DNA from: Siphonobacter sp. BAB-5405
GTDB lineage: Bacteria; Bacteroidota; Bacteroidia; Cytophagales; Spirosomataceae
Assembly (NCBI RefSeq): GCF_002872335.1
Contig: NZ_NJAG01000023.1
Coordinates: forward strand, 1-60,888
Direction: 5' to 3'
Length of the DNA stretch: 60,888 nucleotides
The notes beneath the pieces are model-generated. The model had not been told where the DNA came from and did no database searches. It saw nothing but the letters and a program-made list of their open reading frames with translations. Below, piece by piece: positions 5,907 to 18,190 of the stretch (the stretch's first letter is position 1; each line of letters opens with the position of its first letter). The translations under genes and the position numbers were made by a program.

Positions 5907-6674
5907 CTACATTACAATCAACGGAGACACAATCGCGAGTACCTGCTCTTTCGTCAGGGGCTCGTCGAAGGCTTCCGAGACCACGATGTCCGAGAATCCG
6001 GGGCCCAGTTTGGTTACGTCCACTTTCTGTACCACGTTTTCCTCGCCGGCGTATACGGCAGCAGGGGCTCCGTCCGGTTCGTTTTTGGTGATCCAGACGC
6101 GGCCTTCGCGAATGCGACGCACTTCGGCGGCATGACGGGCTTCAACCGCGTGAATTTGCAGGGCCGTGGTCAGTACCGCCTGTTTGTACAGTTTCGGAGC
6201 CTGTCCTTTGTAGGCCCGAACGCCCGTATCTTCAAAGGCCTGCGAAACGATCAGGAAGGTTTGGTAGTCCGAGAATACGTTCGGAAATACTTCTTCGAAT
6301 TTGAACATCTTGGGTTTGGCTACCGCAGCACTGCCCAGGACTGATTTCAACAACTTGACGTGGGCGTCCTCGTGCTTGCTGATTTGCTCAAATACGGGTC
6401 GATCCCCACCAAACGACAGGCTAGTGCTCAATGCTTTTTTGTAGAATTCGTCTTCCAGGTATTCCAGCGTCAGAGCAAAGTTCAGCACTTCCTGTACTTC
6501 AGTGGACTGAGCAAAGGCTTCCTGTGTGACGCTGGCCAGGGCGAGAGGTAGGGCGGCCGCTGTCGCTGCCTTCGTGCCCTTGCGGAGAAAATAACGACGC
6601 GAGTAGAAGGATAAACGCTCCGTAGCGTCGCCATCTATCTTTTCAATATCGGAAAAAATCTGAAAAATATTCAT
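5907..6674 (-). CDS. Tat-exported ferritin-like domain protein
   Basis: This 255-residue protein belongs to the ferritin-like family seen in Bacteroidota as tandem pairs. A twin-arginine signal (SRRYFLRKG followed by an Ala-rich hydrophobic stretch ending AFAQS) occupies about residues 25-57, so it is exported folded. The four-helix domain carries acidic/His metal-ligand candidates in LEYLEDEFY, KHEDAHVKLL, FEDTGVRAY and IHAVEARHAAEV. The ATG at 6674 leaves about 24 residues before the Tat motif, which is long but usual for this family. It lies 58 bases after the second ferritin-like gene and is probably co-transcribed with it. Iron or manganese binding and an oxidative-stress role are inference from the fold; no enzymatic activity is established for this group. 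Confidence 0.85.
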   Translation of the reverse strand: MNIFQIFSDIEKIDGDATERLSFYSRRYFLRKGTKAATAAALPLALASVTQEAFAQSTEVQEVLNFALTLEYLEDEFYKKALSTSLSFGGDRPVFEQISKHEDAHVKLLKSVLGSAAVAKPKMFKFEEVFPNVFSDYQTFLIVSQAFEDTGVRAYKGQAPKLYKQAVLTTALQIHAVEARHAAEVRRIREGRVWITKNEPDGAPAAVYAGEENVVQKVDVTKLGPGFSDIVVSEAFDEPLTKEQVLAIVSPLIVM

Positions 6675-6732
6675 GGATTGAATCGAAGTTCAAGAGAGAG
6701 TCAAGTAGTAAGTAGATAGAAAAAGGCCGATG

Positions 6733-7464
6733 CTATTGAACGGGAATCCGCTCCGCCGTGATTCGCTCTTTGATGTAGGGCTGAGCCAGTACGACCACTT
6801 GTTGCGGGTACAGGGCCCGATCCAGACCCGTATCGGGCGTGATGATGTCATCGCCGGCAAAACTGCCTGGCATGTTGGATCGTGGATGCAGCAGATCGCG
6901 GAGCAGAGCCGCATGGCGAGCTTCTACGGATACGATTTTACCCGAAAGATTCAACAGTTCCATATCCGTTACGAAACGGCCCGCTCCGTTCAGAGCGGCA
7001 ACGCCCAGGTCTTCGAACGTATGACCCGTTTTCAGAATTTCTTCACGCGATCCAATCTTGATGTTGTCGAAGTTCGGCGTCAGCATTGGAATGGCTTTGT
7101 CTCCCAGCAGATACCGGAACAGCTCCAGGTGCGTACGTTCCCGGTCACGGAGATCCACAAACAGGGCTTTTTCTTCCGCCGACAGTTGATTAAACGCGGG
7201 ACTTTCAATCACGGTTGAATAAAACGCTACTTCCAGTTGCTCCTGGGCATACGACAGGTTCATAATGCCCACATCGCCAAATCCTAAATCAATGAAGTTA
7301 GGATCATATACGATGGGTTTGTGGTCTTCACAGGCTAACGTGGTTAACGTAAGAGCTGAAATAGAGGACAAGCCGGCAAAACGGAGAAAGGTGCGGCGAC
7401 CTACAGCAGTGGTACCGTTGTTCGAGCCGCCCGATGCGGCTGAACCCGTAGAAAGTTGATTCAT
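6733..7464 (-). CDS. Second Tat-exported ferritin-like domain protein
   Basis: Starting at the ATG at 7464 the protein is 243 residues long. A longer frame back to 7515 adds residues before an already complete signal and is less likely. A Tat signal (GRRTFLRFAGLSS) precedes a hydrophobic stretch ending in LACED, so it may be a lipoprotein anchored by that Cys, although the lipobox is imperfect. The ferritin-like domain shows SYAQEQLEVAFY, RDRERTHLELFRYL, FEDLGVAALNG and VSVEARHAALLRDL, matching the helices and ligand positions of its downstream partner. The pair probably acts together at the cell envelope. An upstream region of about 390 bases separates it from the next gene. Confidence 0.85.
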   Translation of the reverse strand: MNQLSTGSAASGGSNNGTTAVGRRTFLRFAGLSSISALTLTTLACEDHKPIVYDPNFIDLGFGDVGIMNLSYAQEQLEVAFYSTVIESPAFNQLSAEEKALFVDLRDRERTHLELFRYLLGDKAIPMLTPNFDNIKIGSREEILKTGHTFEDLGVAALNGAGRFVTDMELLNLSGKIVSVEARHAALLRDLLHPRSNMPGSFAGDDIITPDTGLDRALYPQQVVVLAQPYIKERITAERIPVQ

Positions 7465-7623
7465 AGAACGGTTAAAAAAGATGAAAAAGGACAAATACTC
7501 AAGGTTCAGGCACATCTTTCAACTTCGTACGCGAAAACACCCCTCGGGTGGTTCGGGCACGACTGAACACATGCACAAGCATTCACTTTTATTAGAGTAA
7601 CTGAGTAAAATGTGCTAATGGCG

Positions 7624-7856: not shown

Positions 7857-9029
7857 CTAATCTTCCAGGAACGTGAATACAATCAGATACGATAAAATGG
7901 ATACGACAAACCCGAACATAAAAATGTTATAGGCGATGCGGAGGAGCTTATATTTCTTGCCCAGTACGACGCCCAGGTGGTAGATGTCGCGGGTCATGCT
8001 GCCGTAGAGAAATTCGCTGTCCTTCATCATGGCGTCGATGCCACGTTCGTAGTCTTCCAGGGTCATGTTGTAAAAATTACCGAAAAAGAGCAGGTTGGCT
8101 TTCTTCTGCCGAATGTCATCCATACTCACCGTGCCCCGGGTAATGTTCGGTCGCGTGGCCAGTACGGCAAAAATGATGGTCAGGACAGCCGTAAGCAGAA
8201 AGATGGCCGTAGGCGGAATCAATTGCGGGTGATTTTCCAGCCGGTGCGACAAGACCGATACCACCACCGAAACCATGATGGAATTGACCGAAATCATGAT
8301 GTTGGCTTTGCTGTCGGCAATTTCACTCAGGCGTAAATGGTTGGTGGACGTCGTCCGAAACATGGTTTCGATCCCGCGTTCGGGGTCTTTCTTTTTCTTT
8401 TCCGCGACGAGTGGCTGCATGGGTGCGTCGGTTTTTTCGGCCTGCTTATCCAGGAGTCGCCGCAGGTTTTCGGCTTTCGTTGCGTCAAACATTTTTCGGG
8501 CCATCGGCGTGAAATACTGATGCGACTGGATGAATTCGATATTACCCATTCGCCAGAGGTTTCCCGAAATCTGGATGCCTTTCATGGCCTCTATTTCTTT
8601 CCGCAAAAGTTTGGTTTTGTCCTTATAATCGACGCTACCCAGGTGCGACAGATCCGCATCGCAGATAATTTCTTCCAGTAAATTGTGGGGCTTTTGGGGC
8701 ATTCGGGTCGCCAAAATGCAGCCTTCCACCTGGGCAATTAGCTCGGCAGACTGTCCTTCGCTCTGCAGGAATGCCGTCGCCAGCTCGGCACTTTTTTCCT
8801 CGTGTTGCATCTTCGGGCTGAATAAATAGCCCGCATCGTGAAACCAGGCGGCTACGAGTACCGTCTGGTACTGGATGTCGTTCAACTGATACTGACGGCT
8901 CAGGGCCTCGGCGGCTTGCACGACTTCCTGGGTGTGGGTAAGCGTATGGTACGCCAGTGAAGGCGTGGGATGTTCGTCGTACAGACGCAGCACATGAGCT
9001 TCCGCTTTCGATACTAAGGGATCAGTCAT
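7857..9029 (-). CDS. HD-domain phosphohydrolase fused to a Pycsar-effector-like membrane domain
   Basis: Residues 1-200 form an HD domain: His28/His32 in YHTLTHTQEV, His64-Asp65 in AWFHDAGYLF and Asp124 in CDADLSHLG are the metal ligands expected of a nucleotide or cyclic-nucleotide phosphohydrolase. Residues 215-390 match the PycTM (DUF5706) effector domain: the motif LRLSEIADSKANIMISVN enters transmembrane segment one (about 244-261), followed by segments at about 274-292 and 366-387. In Pycsar defence a PycTM protein responds to cCMP or cUMP made by a PycC cyclase; no cyclase gene is nearby. The fusion could sense a nucleotide signal or degrade one at the membrane. It follows the large metallophosphatase gene by 50 bases. 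Family identity is fairly sure; function is inference. Confidence 0.8.
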   Translation of the reverse strand: MTDPLVSKAEAHVLRLYDEHPTPSLAYHTLTHTQEVVQAAEALSRQYQLNDIQYQTVLVAAWFHDAGYLFSPKMQHEEKSAELATAFLQSEGQSAELIAQVEGCILATRMPQKPHNLLEEIICDADLSHLGSVDYKDKTKLLRKEIEAMKGIQISGNLWRMGNIEFIQSHQYFTPMARKMFDATKAENLRRLLDKQAEKTDAPMQPLVAEKKKKDPERGIETMFRTTSTNHLRLSEIADSKANIMISVNSIMVSVVVSVLSHRLENHPQLIPPTAIFLLTAVLTIIFAVLATRPNITRGTVSMDDIRQKKANLLFFGNFYNMTLEDYERGIDAMMKDSEFLYGSMTRDIYHLGVVLGKKYKLLRIAYNIFMFGFVVSILSYLIVFTFLED

Positions 9030-9079: not shown

Positions 9080-12000
9080 TTAAAAACGGAATCCTACGGA
9101 AACGTAGGGTAGGGTTCCTTCCCTCGAAAATGCCACGGAAGCGTTGAAAATGAGTAAACTGGCTGGTGAAACGTACAGCCCAGCTCCGTACCCATCGTGC
9201 CAGCGTTGGGAGTTTTCGTTTTTCACCCAGACGCGTCCGAGGTCGTTGAAAAGCGTAAGCCCCACGGTTCCCGGAAAGAGGTACGAGTTAAAATTAAATA
9301 GCTTCGTCCGGATTTCGAGGTTATGATACACCTGTTTCTCTCCCGCAAAACGGTACTTCCGGAAGCCCCGCAGGTTGTCCTGTCCACCGAGGTACTGCAA
9401 CTGATAAAAGGCCGGGTTGCCGTAGGTTAGTCCCCCGCCAATCCGGTTGACAATGACGATACGGGCGGCGTTCGAGAAACTGGCATGAACGGTCAGGTCG
9501 GTACTCAACTGCGTCATGTGGTTTCGCTGGTCGCTAAAACCCTGTAGGGTCATTGCGGTCGTATTCCAGTACAGGCCCCGGGTAGGGAGCGTAGGGTTAT
9601 TTCGGTTGTCGATGACGACACTCGCCTGCAAACCGCCGTAAAACTGTCGCCGCAAAAAGGGTGCATTATTTTTAGCTAAATAGCGTTCCAGGAATCGCCC
9701 CTGATTATCCTCCATATCTACGTTAAAATACTGAAAAACCGGACCCGCCATGACTTGCAGGTGCTGACCCAACCGACGTTTGAGTAGGGCCGATACCGTA
9801 CTTAAATCGTAGCGGGTGCGGTAATAACGAATTTTCCGCCCTTTTTCGTAGACCGTTTCGTTACCAATGCCGAAAAAGTTGGTCACGTTGTCAGGAGCCC
9901 GCAGATACGCGTTGATCCAGAGGTCGTTTTTGCCCAGCAAATGCGTAAAAATACCGTCGTACTTGATGGCCGTCGCTTCCGTAGCCAGGGCGTGGCTGAT
10001 GAGCAGCCGGTTCATGGACGCGTAGGGCGACTTACGGAAGCCGTGTTTGGTAAACTGAAATCCGGCTCCAAGCAGGATACCATCGTCCAGGTTAAAGCCC
10101 GCCGAGGCCAGCGGAGCCAGGCGGTTGTACTGGAAGGCGTGGTTGTCGTAAGCGTTGATGGTAGGATCGCTGGAGGCGTGCACTTGAGCCGTTTGGGGCT
10201 CGGGCCAGACATTGGCTTCCGTACGAAGGTCGTACACCTGGGTCTGCCTTTTTCGCGTATCCTGAAGGGCAAATCGGTCAATGCCTTCGCCACCGATGAG
10301 GCGTATTTTTATACCGGAAGAAGCCGTACCCCGCACGACAAACTGGTCGGTACCCGCCTGACCGTACAAGCGGATTTCCTTCGTCTCGGCTGGGTCAAAT
10401 ACGCGGTGGTACAATTGCTGTTTCAACGTACTATCCTTGCCGATTTTGTACACCCGGACCGACACGCGGCCATCCGGCTGATGTTCCACCTCAAAACGCT
10501 CGGCTTTGTTACTGCCGGGAATATCGACCGCCCGGGCCAGGAAACGGTAATAGGTAAGGCCTTCACTGAGCAGATTGGCCCGACGGGCTTTGAGGGTCGA
10601 TAGAATGTCGGTTCCGAAATTTTTCTGAATTGGATCGGGAAACTGCCGGACGGCTGCTTCGAGTACGGCATCGGTCAGCTTGCCCTGCAGAGCGGTGATT
10701 TCTTCCTGCCAATCCTGCTGACTAAGCTCCTGTAAGAACATCCGGTCGAAGTACCGGGCGTTGTACATAAATCCATTCACATTATGCAGGTGGTCGCGAA
10801 AACCCTGGAATTTGGGCTGTAACCACGAACGGGCTGCAATGTAGGGGAACAGTCCACCCGATTTGAAAAAGACCTGATCGCGATCGCGGGGAATGGGTTC
10901 GTACACCTTGCCGTTTTTGGTTTTTCGACTGCTCCACCGCCACTGATCTTCGTGTCGATCCCAGTCGCCCATCACTAAATCCAGCATACGGGCCCGAACG
11001 ACGGCCCGCTGATTAACGCGGTCATCGTTGTCTTTTTGCAGGGCATCGATCAACTTGGGGGTACTAAGGCTTTTTTCGGTAACGGGATTGCGTTCTTCGA
11101 GCAAACAGACGGTTCCGGCAAAATCAACGCCGTATACGCCCAGAGCCGGATCGTCCGGTACATAAACTATTTTGGGGTTGGCATGCGGTACGTCAGCGGC
11201 TTCCGCCAGCGTGGATACCGCCAGGGGGGCGAAAGGAAATGCCGCCGAAATCTGATCCTGAATAATGTCTTTCGCCACGGTTTGCCGCAGGTACGCAGGC
11301 AGGGCTTTTTCGGGAGCCTTCTGAATGGTACGAAGTACCCATTCCTTGCCCGAAGCATCTTCCAGCCGCAGGGATTTGGTTTGCTGACCGCCGCCGCGTT
11401 GGAGAATTTTGAAGCCTCCCTTTTCTTTGGTAATGTCGAATACCGGCAGGGTGACGGGGGTCGCCCAGACTTTGCGATAGTTTTCTCCGAACAGTCGACG
11501 GTGCAGGGTACTCACGCTATCGTAGTCCGGAGCAATGGCTACGGTTACGGAATCGGGCCAGGATTTTTCCCGGATCCGGGCATGATCTGGCGTGGCCTTG
11601 CGGTCAATTTTGTAGATCGGGGCCGTATGAGCCAGGGTGGCCTGAGCGGCTTCGTCGACGGTGTAGAACGCGGCCTGTACCCGACCGTCCCGTAGTTCGT
11701 CGAGGACTACGTACCCCCATTCACCACTAACGAAACGAGCCTTCTTGCCCTTTTTGACCCGTTCCCGATTGATACCTGATCCACTGACAATAAAATTCCG
11801 GTTCCCGTCTACGATATGCTGTAGGGCATGGTCGTGCCCTGAGACAAAGACAACGTTGGGGGCAGGCTGGGTGGCTTTCTCCAGTACCTGAGCCATGTGT
11901 TTGTAAATCGGATTGGGCAAATCCTGCACGGTACCGAATACGCCCCGGGCGATGGGATAAATCGATCCAATGACCGGTAACGGAATGTACAGGTGAGGGT

Positions 12001-12730
12001 TAATATCGGTAAATGGAAAAATATGCTGCTTGAGCGTATAATAGCCCCCGTGAATGCCGTAGCTGCGGAAGGGCTGGTGCGTCGCCAGAATGATTCCCTT
12101 GTCACGATTGAGGTATACCAACTCCGAGAGTCGCGTGACGACTTCATCTTCGGTTTTGCAGGCACAGTCTGAATCTCTGCCGGGTTTATCGTTGGGATGT
12201 AGCCACCACTGCGTATCAACGATGATCAGAACCAGATGATCGTTTAGCTCCACCAGTTCAGGACCAGGACAGCCGCCGGCGGGAAGCAAACGGATGTTGG
12301 GCGAATTCAGACTGTCGAGCCAACGGCCCTGGCGTTTGATTTTCTCCCAGCCGTCGGGATGATCCTTACTCCAGTCGTGATTACCCGGGATGAACAATAC
12401 CTGAGACGCTTTCCCAATGCCAAGCTGGGCCTGGTAACGCAGAATGGTCGTCAGGGAGTCGTAATCCGGACTGGCTTCGTCGGATAATCCGTGCGGGTAC
12501 ACGTTATCGCCGAGGTACAGCATCGTTGTCTGCGGATCGTCGAAGGAATATCGGGCTCGTACCGCATCTACCACCGGATTTTTGCCCTTGTACAGGCGTC
12601 CGGCGTCCCCAATGAGTACGAGTCGATGCACGACGGAGTCGGGTCGGGCCTGCTGGGCCCGTATCGGAAGTATTCCACCAAAAACCAGCAGCAGAATCAG
12701 GCTTCGGCGGAGGAAGAAGAACGTACGCAT
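9080..12730 (-). CDS. Metallophosphatase / kinase-like / Omp85-type barrel fusion protein
   Basis: Starting at the ATG at 12730 (a longer frame to 12811 would bury the signal peptide), the 1216-residue protein begins with a signal peptide (MRTFFFLRRSLILLLVFGG...IRAQQ). Residues 35-340 are a calcineurin-like metallophosphatase: LIGDAG, YLGDNVYP, GNHDW, ATHQP and SGHDHA supply the usual Asp/Asn/His metal ligands. Residues 440-720 are unrecognised but contain GDWDRHEDQW (588-597) and PIPRDRDQVF (612-621), preceded by VLRTIQK (465-471), a layout like the active site of Fam20-type secreted kinases. About residues 860-1216 form a BamA/TamA-type surface-antigen barrel (YLGGQDNLRGFRKYRF; final aromatic GFRF). 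It is probably an outer-membrane protein with periplasmic or surface-exposed enzymatic domains. The kinase comparison is inference. Confidence 0.85.
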   Translation of the reverse strand: MRTFFFLRRSLILLLVFGGILPIRAQQARPDSVVHRLVLIGDAGRLYKGKNPVVDAVRARYSFDDPQTTMLYLGDNVYPHGLSDEASPDYDSLTTILRYQAQLGIGKASQVLFIPGNHDWSKDHPDGWEKIKRQGRWLDSLNSPNIRLLPAGGCPGPELVELNDHLVLIIVDTQWWLHPNDKPGRDSDCACKTEDEVVTRLSELVYLNRDKGIILATHQPFRSYGIHGGYYTLKQHIFPFTDINPHLYIPLPVIGSIYPIARGVFGTVQDLPNPIYKHMAQVLEKATQPAPNVVFVSGHDHALQHIVDGNRNFIVSGSGINRERVKKGKKARFVSGEWGYVVLDELRDGRVQAAFYTVDEAAQATLAHTAPIYKIDRKATPDHARIREKSWPDSVTVAIAPDYDSVSTLHRRLFGENYRKVWATPVTLPVFDITKEKGGFKILQRGGGQQTKSLRLEDASGKEWVLRTIQKAPEKALPAYLRQTVAKDIIQDQISAAFPFAPLAVSTLAEAADVPHANPKIVYVPDDPALGVYGVDFAGTVCLLEERNPVTEKSLSTPKLIDALQKDNDDRVNQRAVVRARMLDLVMGDWDRHEDQWRWSSRKTKNGKVYEPIPRDRDQVFFKSGGLFPYIAARSWLQPKFQGFRDHLHNVNGFMYNARYFDRMFLQELSQQDWQEEITALQGKLTDAVLEAAVRQFPDPIQKNFGTDILSTLKARRANLLSEGLTYYRFLARAVDIPGSNKAERFEVEHQPDGRVSVRVYKIGKDSTLKQQLYHRVFDPAETKEIRLYGQAGTDQFVVRGTASSGIKIRLIGGEGIDRFALQDTRKRQTQVYDLRTEANVWPEPQTAQVHASSDPTINAYDNHAFQYNRLAPLASAGFNLDDGILLGAGFQFTKHGFRKSPYASMNRLLISHALATEATAIKYDGIFTHLLGKNDLWINAYLRAPDNVTNFFGIGNETVYEKGRKIRYYRTRYDLSTVSALLKRRLGQHLQVMAGPVFQYFNVDMEDNQGRFLERYLAKNNAPFLRRQFYGGLQASVVIDNRNNPTLPTRGLYWNTTAMTLQGFSDQRNHMTQLSTDLTVHASFSNAARIVIVNRIGGGLTYGNPAFYQLQYLGGQDNLRGFRKYRFAGEKQVYHNLEIRTKLFNFNSYLFPGTVGLTLFNDLGRVWVKNENSQRWHDGYGAGLYVSPASLLIFNASVAFSREGTLPYVSVGFRF

Positions 12731-12809: not shown

Positions 12810-12828
12810 AAAGCTACGGTTTATCTAT

Positions 12829-15210
12829 TTAGGATTGAGCGACCAGCAGTTCCTGCTCAGGTACCCCCAGGGGTTCCGCGTATTGAATGGCCAGCCGAAT
12901 GGCTTTTAGTCCAACAACGCCCTGCAAAGGCTCCAGATCGAGGTATTCCAACGTAGGGCTAATCCGGTTCTGTTCCTGTAATAAAGTGATTAAAGGAAGA
13001 TAATCCGCGATTTCCTGCTGATGGGTATACACCAGGGCAATGTGGTCGGGTTGCGTCAGGCGTTCGTTGGTACCACGCACCAGGGCCTTGTCGATCCGTT
13101 TTTTAATGACTTCATACCGGATGCTGTAGGAGCCTTCCACGTCAAAGCGGTGTTCATCCTCCCGGAAACTGATGTTCACGGGCTGGGAATGAGCCAGAAT
13201 CAGCTGCGTCGTTTGCAGGGGTCGCGGCAGGTGCGGTAACAGACGATGCGTGAGTTGAGCCAGATCCACCATCGACGTCAATTGCCAGAGTCTCAACCGC
13301 CGTAAGTCATTGGCTACGAAAGGATTTTGCGGGGAAATCGACTGTCCCACGTAGATATTGTACTCCATGCCGTCGGTCCGGTACTTCTCAAAATAGTGCG
13401 GATAAACGGCCTGTAATTGCTGTTCTTCCTGCTCAATGTACCCGTTAACGGCCGCGTTGATCCAGTCCAGACTGCGTTCATAATTCCGGGAAGCCTGGTG
13501 GAAATGGCCCGTTTGTGGATCGGTTTGCTGAAAATAATACTCAAGGGATGGTTCCAGTGCTTTGGAATCGAGCTGCAAACGGCGGAAGTAAGGCGTAACC
13601 TGCTGCGACAAAAACAGGAGAATACTTTCTTCGGTATCGGGCGTCAGATCGTCGAGCAATAACTCCTGCCAGTACCGGGTTTCCACCTGCAATTGCTGCG
13701 ATCGCTCCGAAGCTACACTAGGTTCCTGCAACAGCGAAGCAGCAGCAGCCAATTGATGGCTCAGGTCCGTACGGATGGCCCAGTGCCGTTCCAGCGACGA
13801 ATTCCGAATGTCGATGGCTCCGTATAAGGGATACACCTGCGGAAAACGAATGCGGGCAGTTTCCCGGTCCGCCGGTTTTTTGCCACCAGCCCGCAGATAC
13901 TGCCAGGCTACTTCGTTGAATTTCCATTCAACGGCCGGTTGCAGGGTCGTGAATTTTTGCCGAATCAGTCGTTGAATGCGTTTATTGAATTCACTGATCT
14001 GGAAGAGTAATAATTCCCGAACGAGCGGAATGACGCGTTCGACCTTGAAGAGAATTTCGTCGTCCAGAGCGTCGGCGTTGGGGCTGCCAATTTCGAGTAC
14101 ACCCACGACCTGATCCGCCGCTTTAATGGGATACAGAATAAAACTTTGCAGGCCGTTAGAAACCAGCCGCTGTAACTCGGGCTCCGAAAACTTGTTCAGG
14201 TTACAGAAAACGTGCGGGTAATCGTGTTGAGCGAGTCGCTCGGCAATGCGTTCCTGCATGGTCTGCTGACTGCCTTCCACCCAGGCTTCGCCGCAGGTTT
14301 TCTCAAAATCGGCCATCGCCAGTACCACACTACGACTACCAAAATCGGGGTGAAAAACGTACTGCTGATTGATTTTGATGAAGGGCATCAGACCAATCCG
14401 GATGTCGGGTTGTCCGCACAAATCCCGCATGGCTTTCTCGAAGCGGCGGTAGATCATCTCCTCCGAATCACTCTGCAAGTGTACAAACACCTCTTTGAGC
14501 TGCTGAATGGTCTTGTCCTCGGTAATGTCTTCAATCAGAAAAACGCAAAATCCTTTGAGAACAAACTCGCCGAGGGGCAGGGGCGAAGGCACGCGATCCA
14601 GGGTACGATGACCTTTAGCGAATTCCGTCCATTCGGGCTGTAGAGGCGGCAAGGCAGAGCCCTGATGTTGCGGTTCTACGAAATTGACGTTTATCGTTAA
14701 ACGATAGAATTTCGTAACGCCATTGACGACCCGCTGAAACGACAGCGAAGGCGTAAGTTCCTTGATAAAATGAACGCCGTAGCACTTATTCAGAATCAGC
14801 TGGTACAGAAACCGTAGTTTCTCTTTGTGATTATGAGCCTCGTCCACTTCCAGCCCTTCGTACGTATGCAGGAGAGCGTTGAACGAATCCGAAGCGTGAA
14901 ATAAGTCCAGCGGAATCGGCAATCCAAAGCCATAGGGTATTTCCTTTTCGTTACTCAGTAAGGGTAATACGCTCAGCTTGAGTAGCTGAGCCATGTCTTC
15001 CAATTGCTGTGGCGTATACGTTTCATCAATAGAGTCTTCGGAAATGAGTGGCGTAAATTGTTGAAGTAAGTAATCAAATACGTGCGAGCGGGCAGCACCC
15101 GTGGACGTAGAACCCTTTTGCTGCTGTAAGTACGCAATAAAGGGTTTAAAGGATAACCTGAACTGTACCGGGAACTCGGCTACTTCAGGGGGTATAGCGA
15201 TGGTATCCAT
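12829..15210 (-). CDS. GAF-domain protein, cytoplasmic
   Basis: This 793-residue protein has no signal peptide or membrane segment. Residues of about 250-405 form a GAF-like module (LQSFILYPIKAADQVVGVLE followed by an acidic, helix-rich end); the N-terminal 240 and C-terminal 380 residues are not recognised. No histidine-kinase, cyclase or receiver domain follows the GAF, so the protein seems to be a ligand-sensing or scaffold protein. Relatives of similar length occur in other Cytophagales annotated only as GAF-domain proteins. It is the first gene of a leftward set with the metallophosphatase/barrel protein (98 bases) and the HD-PycTM protein, and its promoter must lie in the 1.1-kb gap to its right. 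Confidence 0.7.
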   Translation of the reverse strand: MDTIAIPPEVAEFPVQFRLSFKPFIAYLQQQKGSTSTGAARSHVFDYLLQQFTPLISEDSIDETYTPQQLEDMAQLLKLSVLPLLSNEKEIPYGFGLPIPLDLFHASDSFNALLHTYEGLEVDEAHNHKEKLRFLYQLILNKCYGVHFIKELTPSLSFQRVVNGVTKFYRLTINVNFVEPQHQGSALPPLQPEWTEFAKGHRTLDRVPSPLPLGEFVLKGFCVFLIEDITEDKTIQQLKEVFVHLQSDSEEMIYRRFEKAMRDLCGQPDIRIGLMPFIKINQQYVFHPDFGSRSVVLAMADFEKTCGEAWVEGSQQTMQERIAERLAQHDYPHVFCNLNKFSEPELQRLVSNGLQSFILYPIKAADQVVGVLEIGSPNADALDDEILFKVERVIPLVRELLLFQISEFNKRIQRLIRQKFTTLQPAVEWKFNEVAWQYLRAGGKKPADRETARIRFPQVYPLYGAIDIRNSSLERHWAIRTDLSHQLAAAASLLQEPSVASERSQQLQVETRYWQELLLDDLTPDTEESILLFLSQQVTPYFRRLQLDSKALEPSLEYYFQQTDPQTGHFHQASRNYERSLDWINAAVNGYIEQEEQQLQAVYPHYFEKYRTDGMEYNIYVGQSISPQNPFVANDLRRLRLWQLTSMVDLAQLTHRLLPHLPRPLQTTQLILAHSQPVNISFREDEHRFDVEGSYSIRYEVIKKRIDKALVRGTNERLTQPDHIALVYTHQQEIADYLPLITLLQEQNRISPTLEYLDLEPLQGVVGLKAIRLAIQYAEPLGVPEQELLVAQS

Positions 15211-16327
15211 GCGATATGGATGATTAGTACGTAAACAAGGAGTTAATCTTGAAGTATATAATCTAAACTTTTGACTTTGGGTTCAAATATTTCCAAAATA
15301 TCGTGTGGATCGTGCGAAAGGAGGGTTGAACGGTTTGTACTGCCAGGGAATGGAAAAGGTGGAATAACAAAGGTAGGAGCATTTTCAAAATCCGTTTATG
15401 CACTTTAAAATTTCTTTGCTATAGAAAAGTTGAAAGTTTATCTTGAAATTATCTTATATCAAAGTAGTAGGTTGAAGTGAGGGATCTATTTAAGAACTAA
15501 AATAGCGTTTATTACGTAGTTGAATGCCCCTAATTTTAACGGGTTTATTTCAATTAAAATCAATACTATTTATTGATAAGAATGCTGTTTAGTAGGTATT
15601 TAAAAATGCATGATTTGATGAATTGAACCAATACATCATTGTTTTAAAGTATTGAGGAAGTTTAATGCGTTTTGAGTAATTAAAATCTCTTTATACGCCT
15701 TTGATTCCTCATTCTGTTGACGGTAGTCTACATTCAATAAAAGCCAGTTATGCAATAACCCTAAAATTTGTGGGTGTATGAGCTGCTTAGATTGACCAAC
15801 ACGAATGAGTAGCCTTTAAGATAAATGCCAATGTATTGTGAACTTATAAAATGAGTTAGTGTCAGGTTAATTGTGTTTCCAGGGGTTGGGAAGCTATAAA
15901 TCTAAAATTGAGATTAAAATTTAATTTTGATCCTAAGGCGGTAGTGGATTTATGCATAAACAGAAAATACATGAACAGCCAAGAGTTTTAGCTGTCAGGA
16001 TTCATGAGTAATGCTAGCTAAGGAGAGTTGAGGAAAGCCTTAATTTTGTGTCTGTCAATCCTTTTTGATCGGGATAATGGATGCATGTATTTACTTATAT
16101 TAGTCTGGTTTTTGTATAAATGAGAAAATAATTTTCATGTTTTAATGAAGTGAAAATGAATCGTAATGAGAAGTAAATACGAGAAGTAATTCCGAAATTG
16201 GTATGGGTCTTTTCCGAAGTAAATCCTGTCTGATAAAGTCGTTTTTCATATCAGTAATTCTAAGAAGTAAGTCGCCCGCCGGAATTTGCTTTTGGAAGGT
16301 TTTGCGTACCAATCTCTGCTCGCATTT
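15211..16327. other. 1.1-kb AT-rich gene-free gap between divergent genes
   Basis: The gap is far AT-richer than the genes on both sides. I found no open frame with coding character, no tRNA and no strong hairpin. TAnnTTTG-like boxes occur (TAATTTTG at 16041 on plus; TACCTTTG at 15375-15368 on minus), but neither has a TTG box at the proper distance. It presumably holds two divergent promoters and perhaps an unrecognised RNA. Confidence 0.5.
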
Positions 16328-18190
16328 ATGGAACTCAAGTACAAAATTGCACTCATCAGTGACCATGCTTCTCCATTGGCCATTTGCGGCGGCGTCGATG
16401 CCGGCGGGCAGAATATAGCCGTAGCCGAGCTGGCTCAGCACCTGGCGGATCTGGGTTATTCCATCGACATCTTTACCCGCTGGGCGGATGAAAAGCTGCC
16501 GCAGGTGATTCAGTGGCAACCGCAAATTCGGGTCGTGCACGTAAAAGCGGGTCCGAAGACCTTTCTGCCCAAAGAAGAATTTCTACCCTACATGCCGGAG
16601 TTTACGGCAGATGTACTGCGTTTTTCCAAACGCGAAGGGCATCCGTACCGACTCGTTCATGCCCATTTCTTTCTGTCGGCAATGGTCGCCGCTGATTTGA
16701 AAAAGATGCTCGGTATTCCCTTCGTCATTACTTTCCATGCCCTGGGAAAAGTCCGGCGACTCATTCAGGGCGATAGCGATAAATTTCCTGCTCTACGGTT
16801 TGATCTGGAAGATCGGGTCATTCGCGAAGCCGATCAGGTGATTGCTCTGTGTCCGCAAGACCGCGACGATCTGCTGACGCTGTACAACGCCGATCCGAAC
16901 AAGCTAACGATTATCCCGAATGGCTTTAACCCCGGCGAATTTTTCATCACCGATCAAAAGCGGGCACGGGCTAAAGTAGGCCTTCCCGCCGACGAGAAAA
17001 TCATTTTACAATTAGGCCGGATGGTGCCACGGAAGGGAGTGGCTACCGTCATCGAAGCCCTAGCTCGCCTGAAAAAGCAGTACGGTCAACAGGCTCGTCT
17101 GGTGATTGTGGGCGGGGAATCGGATGTGCCTGATCCGGTCATCACGCCCGAAATGGGTCGGTTACAGCAACTGGCGGAAACCGAAGGAATTGCCGATTCA
17201 GTAACCTTTGTGGGCCGGAGAGACCGGGCTCTGCTTCGGTATTACTACAGTGCCTCGGATGTCTTCGTAACCACGCCCTGGTACGAACCCTTCGGTATTA
17301 CGCCGCTGGAAGCCATGGCCTCGGGTGCTCCGGTCATTGGAGCTAATGTGGGTGGCATCAAGTACACCATCACCGACGGCGAAACCGGCCTGCTGGTACC
17401 ACCCAAAGATCCCGAAGCTCTGGCCGAAAAATTAAACGAGGTTTTGTCGGATAAAATGCTGGGTACTTCACTAAAAGAAAAGGCTTTACAAAACGTACAC
17501 GCTCACTTTACCTGGGAGAAAGTAGCCCGGCAAACGGCTCAATTGTACGAACAATACGCTCTGCCGACCTTTCGTCCGTACCGTCATAGTCAGAAGGCTA
17601 TATTTCTGGACAAAGACGGAACGCTCATTCCTGACATTCCTTACAACATCGATCCCCGGAAAATCCGCCTGTACTCTGACGCGGGAGAAGCTTTGGCTCG
17701 CCTCCAGCGGGCCGGATACCAGATTTTTGTAGTTTCAAATCAGTCGGGTGTGGCGAAGGGATTTTTTCAGGAAGAGGCCTTGACGGGCGTGGAAAGTCGC
17801 ATTCGTGAACTGTTACTGCCCTGGGGCGTGCAACTGAGCGGATTTTACTATTGCCCGCATTCGCCGCAGGGTTCGGTACCTTCGTACGCCATTGACTGTA
17901 CCTGCCGAAAACCCTTGCCAGGAATGATTCTGGAAGCGGCCCAGCAACACGGCATTCACCTGTCCGAATCCTGGATGGTGGGCGATATTCTCAACGACAT
18001 TGAGGCGGGCCGCCGGGCGGGTTGCCGTACCGTGCTCCTCAATAACGGCAACGAAACCGAATGGGTGCCGGGGGAATTTCGGACGCCCACGCACACGGTT
18101 CAATCCCTGAAAGAAATGGCCGATACCATTCTGAATCCAGTCGTGATTCCGGTGGCACCGCGACCGCTGCAACGACCCATTCAAGCGTAG
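16328..18190 (+). CDS. GT4 glycosyltransferase fused to a GmhB-like HAD phosphatase
   Basis: From the ATG at 16328 the protein has 620 residues; an upstream ATG at 16286 would add 14 residues of non-homologous sequence. Residues 1-405 are a GT-B family 4 glycosyltransferase: GGVDAGGQN donor loop, LQLGRMVPRKG, and EPFGITPLE (320-328) for nucleotide-sugar binding. Residues 420-600 are a HAD-IIIA phosphatase: DKDGT (428-432), SNQSG (470-474), and GD at 552. The zinc loop C509-x-H511 ... C524-x-C526-RKPLPGM is diagnostic of D-glycero-D-manno-heptose 1,7-bisphosphate 7-phosphatase (GmhB). Joining an ADP-heptose-pathway enzyme to a transferase, with two GT9 genes nearby, points to heptose glycan synthesis. 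It starts a plus-strand run of closely spaced genes. Confidence 0.85.
   Translation: MELKYKIALISDHASPLAICGGVDAGGQNIAVAELAQHLADLGYSIDIFTRWADEKLPQVIQWQPQIRVVHVKAGPKTFLPKEEFLPYMPEFTADVLRFSKREGHPYRLVHAHFFLSAMVAADLKKMLGIPFVITFHALGKVRRLIQGDSDKFPALRFDLEDRVIREADQVIALCPQDRDDLLTLYNADPNKLTIIPNGFNPGEFFITDQKRARAKVGLPADEKIILQLGRMVPRKGVATVIEALARLKKQYGQQARLVIVGGESDVPDPVITPEMGRLQQLAETEGIADSVTFVGRRDRALLRYYYSASDVFVTTPWYEPFGITPLEAMASGAPVIGANVGGIKYTITDGETGLLVPPKDPEALAEKLNEVLSDKMLGTSLKEKALQNVHAHFTWEKVARQTAQLYEQYALPTFRPYRHSQKAIFLDKDGTLIPDIPYNIDPRKIRLYSDAGEALARLQRAGYQIFVVSNQSGVAKGFFQEEALTGVESRIRELLLPWGVQLSGFYYCPHSPQGSVPSYAIDCTCRKPLPGMILEAAQQHGIHLSESWMVGDILNDIEAGRRAGCRTVLLNNGNETEWVPGEFRTPTHTVQSLKEMADTILNPVVIPVAPRPLQRPIQA

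Follow-up and report, generated by a model that had tools for sequence, protein, structure and literature searches.

The contig NZ_NJAG01000023.1 of Siphonobacter sp. BAB-5405, analysed here over positions 1 to 60,888 (the window), carries on its minus strand a coding sequence (9080..12730) for a protein of 1216 residues. A signal peptide, a purple acid phosphatase, a domain of predicted kinase fold, a region of short beta strands and an Omp85 barrel follow one another in this product. The frame runs from an ATG at 12730 to the stop codon at 9080-9082. The mechanical open reading frame (ORF) starts earlier, at a TTG at 12811; the ATG is preferred because it yields a signal peptide, judged by eye to comprise residues 1-26 (12653..12730), with Q as the next residue. 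Pfam places Omp85 at residues 1004-1199 (E 6.3e-15) and Metallophos at residues 36-234, the latter borderline in the protein search (19.6 bits, cut-off 21.5) and above the cut-off in the genome search (23.1 bits). No Pfam or NCBIfam match falls within residues 346-860. The original prediction, made from the sequence alone, described a metallophosphatase, an unannotated kinase-like middle and an Omp85-type barrel, and this triple layout is borne out by the two Pfam matches and by the kinase fold predicted between them.

According to the model and to fold comparison, residues 401-735 (10526..11530, minus strand, as are all features of the protein) make up a discrete domain with a two-lobed protein-kinase-like (PKL) fold, rather than one unrelated to protein kinases. 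The glycine-rich loop GGGQQTKSLR (residues 446-455; 11366..11395) lies at the turn between predicted strands beta1 and beta2. The catalytic elements come in PKL order: D591, within the motif GDWDRHEDQW (residues 588-597; 10940..10969), follows a helix at 574-587, and D616 and D618, within PIPRDRDQVF (residues 612-621; 10868..10897), follow a strand at 608-614. Both motifs fall at the catalytic-loop and metal-binding-Asp positions of the fold. All three motifs originally named are present (VLRTIQK at 465, GDWDRHEDQW at 588, PIPRDRDQVF at 612), with residue numbers that were off by 1-3; the correct ones are D589/D591, H593 and D616/D618. The beta3 lysine of PKL folds is missing. Predicted beta3 (463-468) contains R467, and K471, the lysine of VLRTIQK initially put forward, lies three residues past the strand (R467 to K471, 11318..11332).

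Conservation was followed in three samples. A whole-domain search gave 53 sequences, including 20 loci chosen because their length was unusual or their score low. The numbers of these sequences that retain each residue are 49 for R467, 50 for K471, 51 for E545, 53 for D584, 51 for D589, 48 for D591, 47 for H593, 51 for D616 and 49 for D618. A scan with the pattern W[DS]R[HRL]x[DGE][QN]WxW supplied, from its 80 top-ranking loci, the 71 sequences of the alignment A2, which is invariant at G446-448, S453, R467, D527, E545, R581, D584, D589, D591, R592, H593, D616 and D618, and nearly so at K471 (70/71). Selection by this pattern biases the invariance of GDWDRH; D616, D618 and R467 lie outside it and are unbiased there. 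On the evidence of these alignments, the motif residues are conserved beyond chance. The third sample mixes both sets with further picked loci (203 ORFs, 202 of them long enough, 182 unique domains). R467 is absent from 10 of the 182 (three gaps, one Lys), all of which have lost D616 or D618, a loss found in only 1 of the 172 domains that keep R467. R467 is the better candidate for the beta3 position: it is part of that strand, its loss goes along with that of D616/D618, and five of the ten domains without it keep K471.

Altered motifs occur in several settings. In one genus (code g5; loci L044, L045 and L197-L202), all eight genomes examined have a head-to-head pair of stand-alone kinase-fold genes, one with intact GDWDRH and the other with GDWSRR (D591S, H593R) and an intact DRD. 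The arrangement brings to mind Fam20C and Fam20A, which form an active-inactive pair. Kinase-barrel proteins with altered motifs were found at L051, L052, L053 (4452-7112), L058 and L205-L211, most of them changed in both lobes, and at L053 the degenerate copy directly adjoins an intact one.

The nearest solved folds among the matches listed are PI4KII and, close behind it, CotH and CtkA, and the assignment to the Fam20 family in the original prediction did not hold. The Fam20C structure 4kqb was matched by Foldseek at rank 9 (E 2.4e-3); the absence of Fam20C from the 50 matches listed in a further fold comparison excludes nothing. Three sequence families were tried and rejected, the window domain having no match at E<=10 to any of them. 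For Fam20C (PF06702), the best relative reached 17.2 or 20.4 bits against a cut-off of 26.8, which was exceeded in none of 148 genomes. Among the 33 relatives of a second alignment (A1), one matched CotH (PF08757) at E 0.018 and one HipA_C (PF07804) at E 0.18. PI3_PI4_kinase was not listed in Pfam searches of the window domain, A1 or A2, and sequence searches of the PDB returned no kinase and weak TRAP matches (E 0.45 and 0.5). Profile-profile comparison of A1 with HipA gave E 0.021 and probability 2.3, with the motifs in register. The comparison with CotH aligned a C-terminal helix instead of the motifs and was no better than shuffles, and when 19 CotH sequences were scanned for the motifs by regular expression, little turned up. 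CtkA is a protein kinase. CotH is described as one as well (PMC7821199), and a fold shared with PI4KII, CotH or CtkA shows no substrate.

The N-terminal domain (residues 34-345; 11696..12631) resembles tartrate-resistant purple acid phosphatase (TRAP/ACP5) in its modelled fold, and ligand alignment identifies all seven metal ligands, including the Tyr (D42, D75, Y78, N117, H218, H299 and H301). Among relatives, a phosphatase was called altered when any of the seven had changed; L117 differs at the Tyr only, and L093, L098, L118 and L121 count as altered by their ligands. The incomplete rows of L128, L065 and L067 were set aside, and a separate tally of 16 altered rows includes L117 and the incomplete L128.

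At the other end of the protein, residues 861-1216 (9083..10150) form a barrel of 16 long strands in the model, as expected of the Omp85 superfamily. The place of POTRA domains, which are common in that superfamily though not present in all members, is taken by residues 740-860 (10151..10513); the model contains no POTRA, and the segment between kinase-fold domain and barrel consists of short beta strands and one short helix beside the barrel. In PlpD, according to PMC11116518, the enzyme domain is located in the periplasm. This precedent and the 16-strand barrel lead us to expect the N-terminal enzyme domains of the window protein in the periplasm as well. A lipobox-like pattern precedes the domain in 16 of 30 short frames; the pattern is a simple one, which overlooks some likely cases and takes in the interrupted frame L073. 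Five stand-alone forms (family code f7; L039-L043) have an N-terminal hydrophobic segment, judged by eye. By these three lines, most forms examined are predicted to lie outside the cytoplasm.

With residues 420-860 as query, the domain was found in 112 of the 296 genomes searched in the phylum of the window, which the named relatives indicate to be Bacteroidota. Within the order, 35 genomes out of 118 have it. The window's own genome has one copy, and the nearest named relative is a Siphonobacter protein (72% identity). The best 80 loci from a separate genome collection hold 86 family frames: 48 complete and three edge-cut frames join phosphatase, kinase-fold domain and barrel, 30 complete and one cut frame lack the phosphatase, and three complete and one cut frame have the kinase-fold domain alone. 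These counts are not population frequencies, since the best-80 rule favours close relatives. In L073, one of the kinase-fold-alone frames, a stop interrupts the frame just past the domain. L109 comes from an assembly titled Chlorobiota.

Two genes flank the fusion gene in the window, one on each side and both on the minus strand: downstream a gene for an HD-PycTM protein (7857..9029), and upstream one for a 793-residue protein (12829..15210) that belongs to a GAF-like neighbour family. The latter has no Pfam match at E 0.001, and a relative has a GAF match below the cut-off. PycTM is the Pycsar effector domain, and its fusion to HD is a steady neighbour of the kinase-fold family. Neighbour families were named from Pfam matches of their representatives. 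In 20-kb stretches from 40 genomes, picked among the 112 and mostly one per genus, profile matches were found to HD-PycTM in 35 (some short), an SdiA-regulated-type propeller in 21, the GAF-like family in 16, PPK1 in 10, a class III cyclase in nine and a SixA-like protein in eight. Within flanks of up to 6 kb at the 80 loci, the corresponding numbers are 37, 32, 20, 17, 16 and 4. None of the annotated neighbour families could be recognised as one of lipid synthesis. Of 57 PPK1 places in 41 genomes, 18 have a family gene no more than 15 kb away, in 16 of the genomes, against a chance expectation of 0.58; the PPK1-linked lineages are related, so that the 18 places are not 18 independent events. 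G072 and G166 are genomes with two PPK1 copies each, every one of them no more than 9 kb from a kinase-fold gene copy of its own. In the window's own genome, PPK1 is on another contig. The link to PPK1 is clear as genome context and says nothing certain about the phosphate donor. The phosphatase can also be a separate gene: at L080 and L087, only the GAF-like gene stands between it and the kinase-barrel gene, at L046 and L047 it adjoins the kinase-fold gene, and at L076 a weaker phosphatase match lies directly upstream. Near the fusion locus, the window also has two adjacent Ferritin_2 genes (5907-7515, minus strand) and a single frame joining a glycosyltransferase to a HAD-type hydrolase (16286-18190).

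With moderate confidence, we read the window protein as an outer-membrane-anchored, periplasm-facing phosphoryl-transfer enzyme whose core represents a new family of PKL fold and is most likely an active phosphotransferase. From the computed fold, conservation, architecture and neighbourhood we infer its activity and membrane side, its donor and substrate, and what each residue does. The glycine-rich loop and R467 would hold the phosphate donor, D591 of GDWDRH would act as catalytic Asp, and D616 and D618 would bind metal, while the Omp85 barrel would serve as anchor in the outer membrane. A TRAP-like phosphatase precedes the kinase-fold domain in many members, and the side-by-side position of the two suggests that phosphate is added and removed outside the cytoplasm, possibly by one protein with an extracytoplasmic substrate, be it protein, lipid or glycan. 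The gene neighbours suggest work alongside polyphosphate or phosphate metabolism.

Several results weigh against this interpretation. Part of the invariance was selected by motif, Pfam offers no match for the window domain at E<=10, and none of its kinase families does better than the single CotH match in A1 or matches any of the 71 A2 members. With A2, the HipA comparison fell to E 0.15 and out of register, a weak and unstable similarity; even the A1 score beat all 150 column shuffles narrowly (25.6 against 24.7), and the CotH score was reached by six of 150 shuffles (one outlier at 132.6). The losses of R467 with D616/D618 amount to 3-4 independent events, too few for significance in a sign test. 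Arg where the beta3 Lys is expected, and Gln in place of the catalytic-loop Asn in 65 of the 71 A2 sequences (Q596; the other six have Asn), could also mark a pseudokinase scaffold, which would keep the fold, bind a ligand and regulate the phosphatase or barrel while transferring no phosphate. Of 87 phosphatase-free sequences, 20 have altered motifs, which points the same way, as does the D591S/H593R paralogue in the g5 genomes; the 20 are neither a random sample nor a frequency, eight being that one paralogue and most others having been fetched as divergent-looking. We nevertheless consider such a scaffold rather unlikely, given that catalytic-type residues are kept in 47-53 of the 53 sequences, that the motifs are intact in 94 of 95 phosphatase fusions of the 182-domain set (partly fetched by motif pattern), and that divergent members lose the motifs of both lobes together. 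Arg has moreover been proposed, in PMC9758233, as counterpart of PKA K72 in the Lani_1194 kinase family, with its conserved active site.

The donor is a real problem for a periplasmic kinase, because the periplasm is held to be without ATP (PMC11116518), which makes phosphorylation in the Gram-negative envelope hard to explain. Polyphosphate instead of ATP as donor, coupled to PPK1 through the recurrent locus and reversed by the fused phosphatase, is an improbable solution; if true, it would mean that phosphate cycles on and off in the bacterial envelope at no cost of ATP. Transport of the enzyme domains through the barrel to act at the cell surface, an idea that arose with patatin-Omp85 proteins, strikes us as unlikely: type Vd secretion was once the name for this layout, in which an enzyme precedes an Omp85 barrel (PMC11116518), but the same source places the PlpD enzyme domain in the periplasm, and the hydrophobic starts of the f7 forms would tether these to the inner membrane, on its periplasmic side. 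The kinase-fold family is widespread and conserved, and many members are fused to a phosphatase or have a PPK1 gene nearby; if it lies in the periplasm as predicted, it would open the identity of donor and substrate to direct test.

Among known systems, the kinases PI4KII, CotH, CtkA and HipA offer the nearest folds and the same order of catalytic loop and metal Asp. The window domain differs from them in lacking a sequence-family match and in its Arg and Gln substitutions, and the window protein in being membrane-anchored and predicted extracytoplasmic. Fam20C secretory kinases share the kinase fold and an extracytoplasmic setting, and match one family relative weakly, their family cut-off being exceeded in none of the 148 genomes. 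In contrast to ACP5, the phosphatase here is fused to a kinase-fold domain and an outer-membrane barrel. In PlpD, too, an enzyme domain precedes an Omp85 barrel of 16 strands; according to PMC11116518, that domain is patatin-like and POTRA is present, whereas the model here has none. Open-access papers, searched by title and start of abstract, yielded none on this family of kinase fold, on its combination with a TRAP-like phosphatase or on its PPK1 neighbourhood. The arrangement was originally thought to be new. A fusion of PF00149 to the barrel was, however, described in 2014 as the 'Metallo' Omp85 subfamily (Heinz and Lithgow; PMC4104836), so that the arrangement was partly anticipated; the word 'kinase' is absent from the main text of that paper. 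This subfamily probably includes proteins like the window protein. Its PF00149 part is named a metalloprotease domain there, a label that a TRAP-like purple acid phosphatase, as modelled here, would correct.
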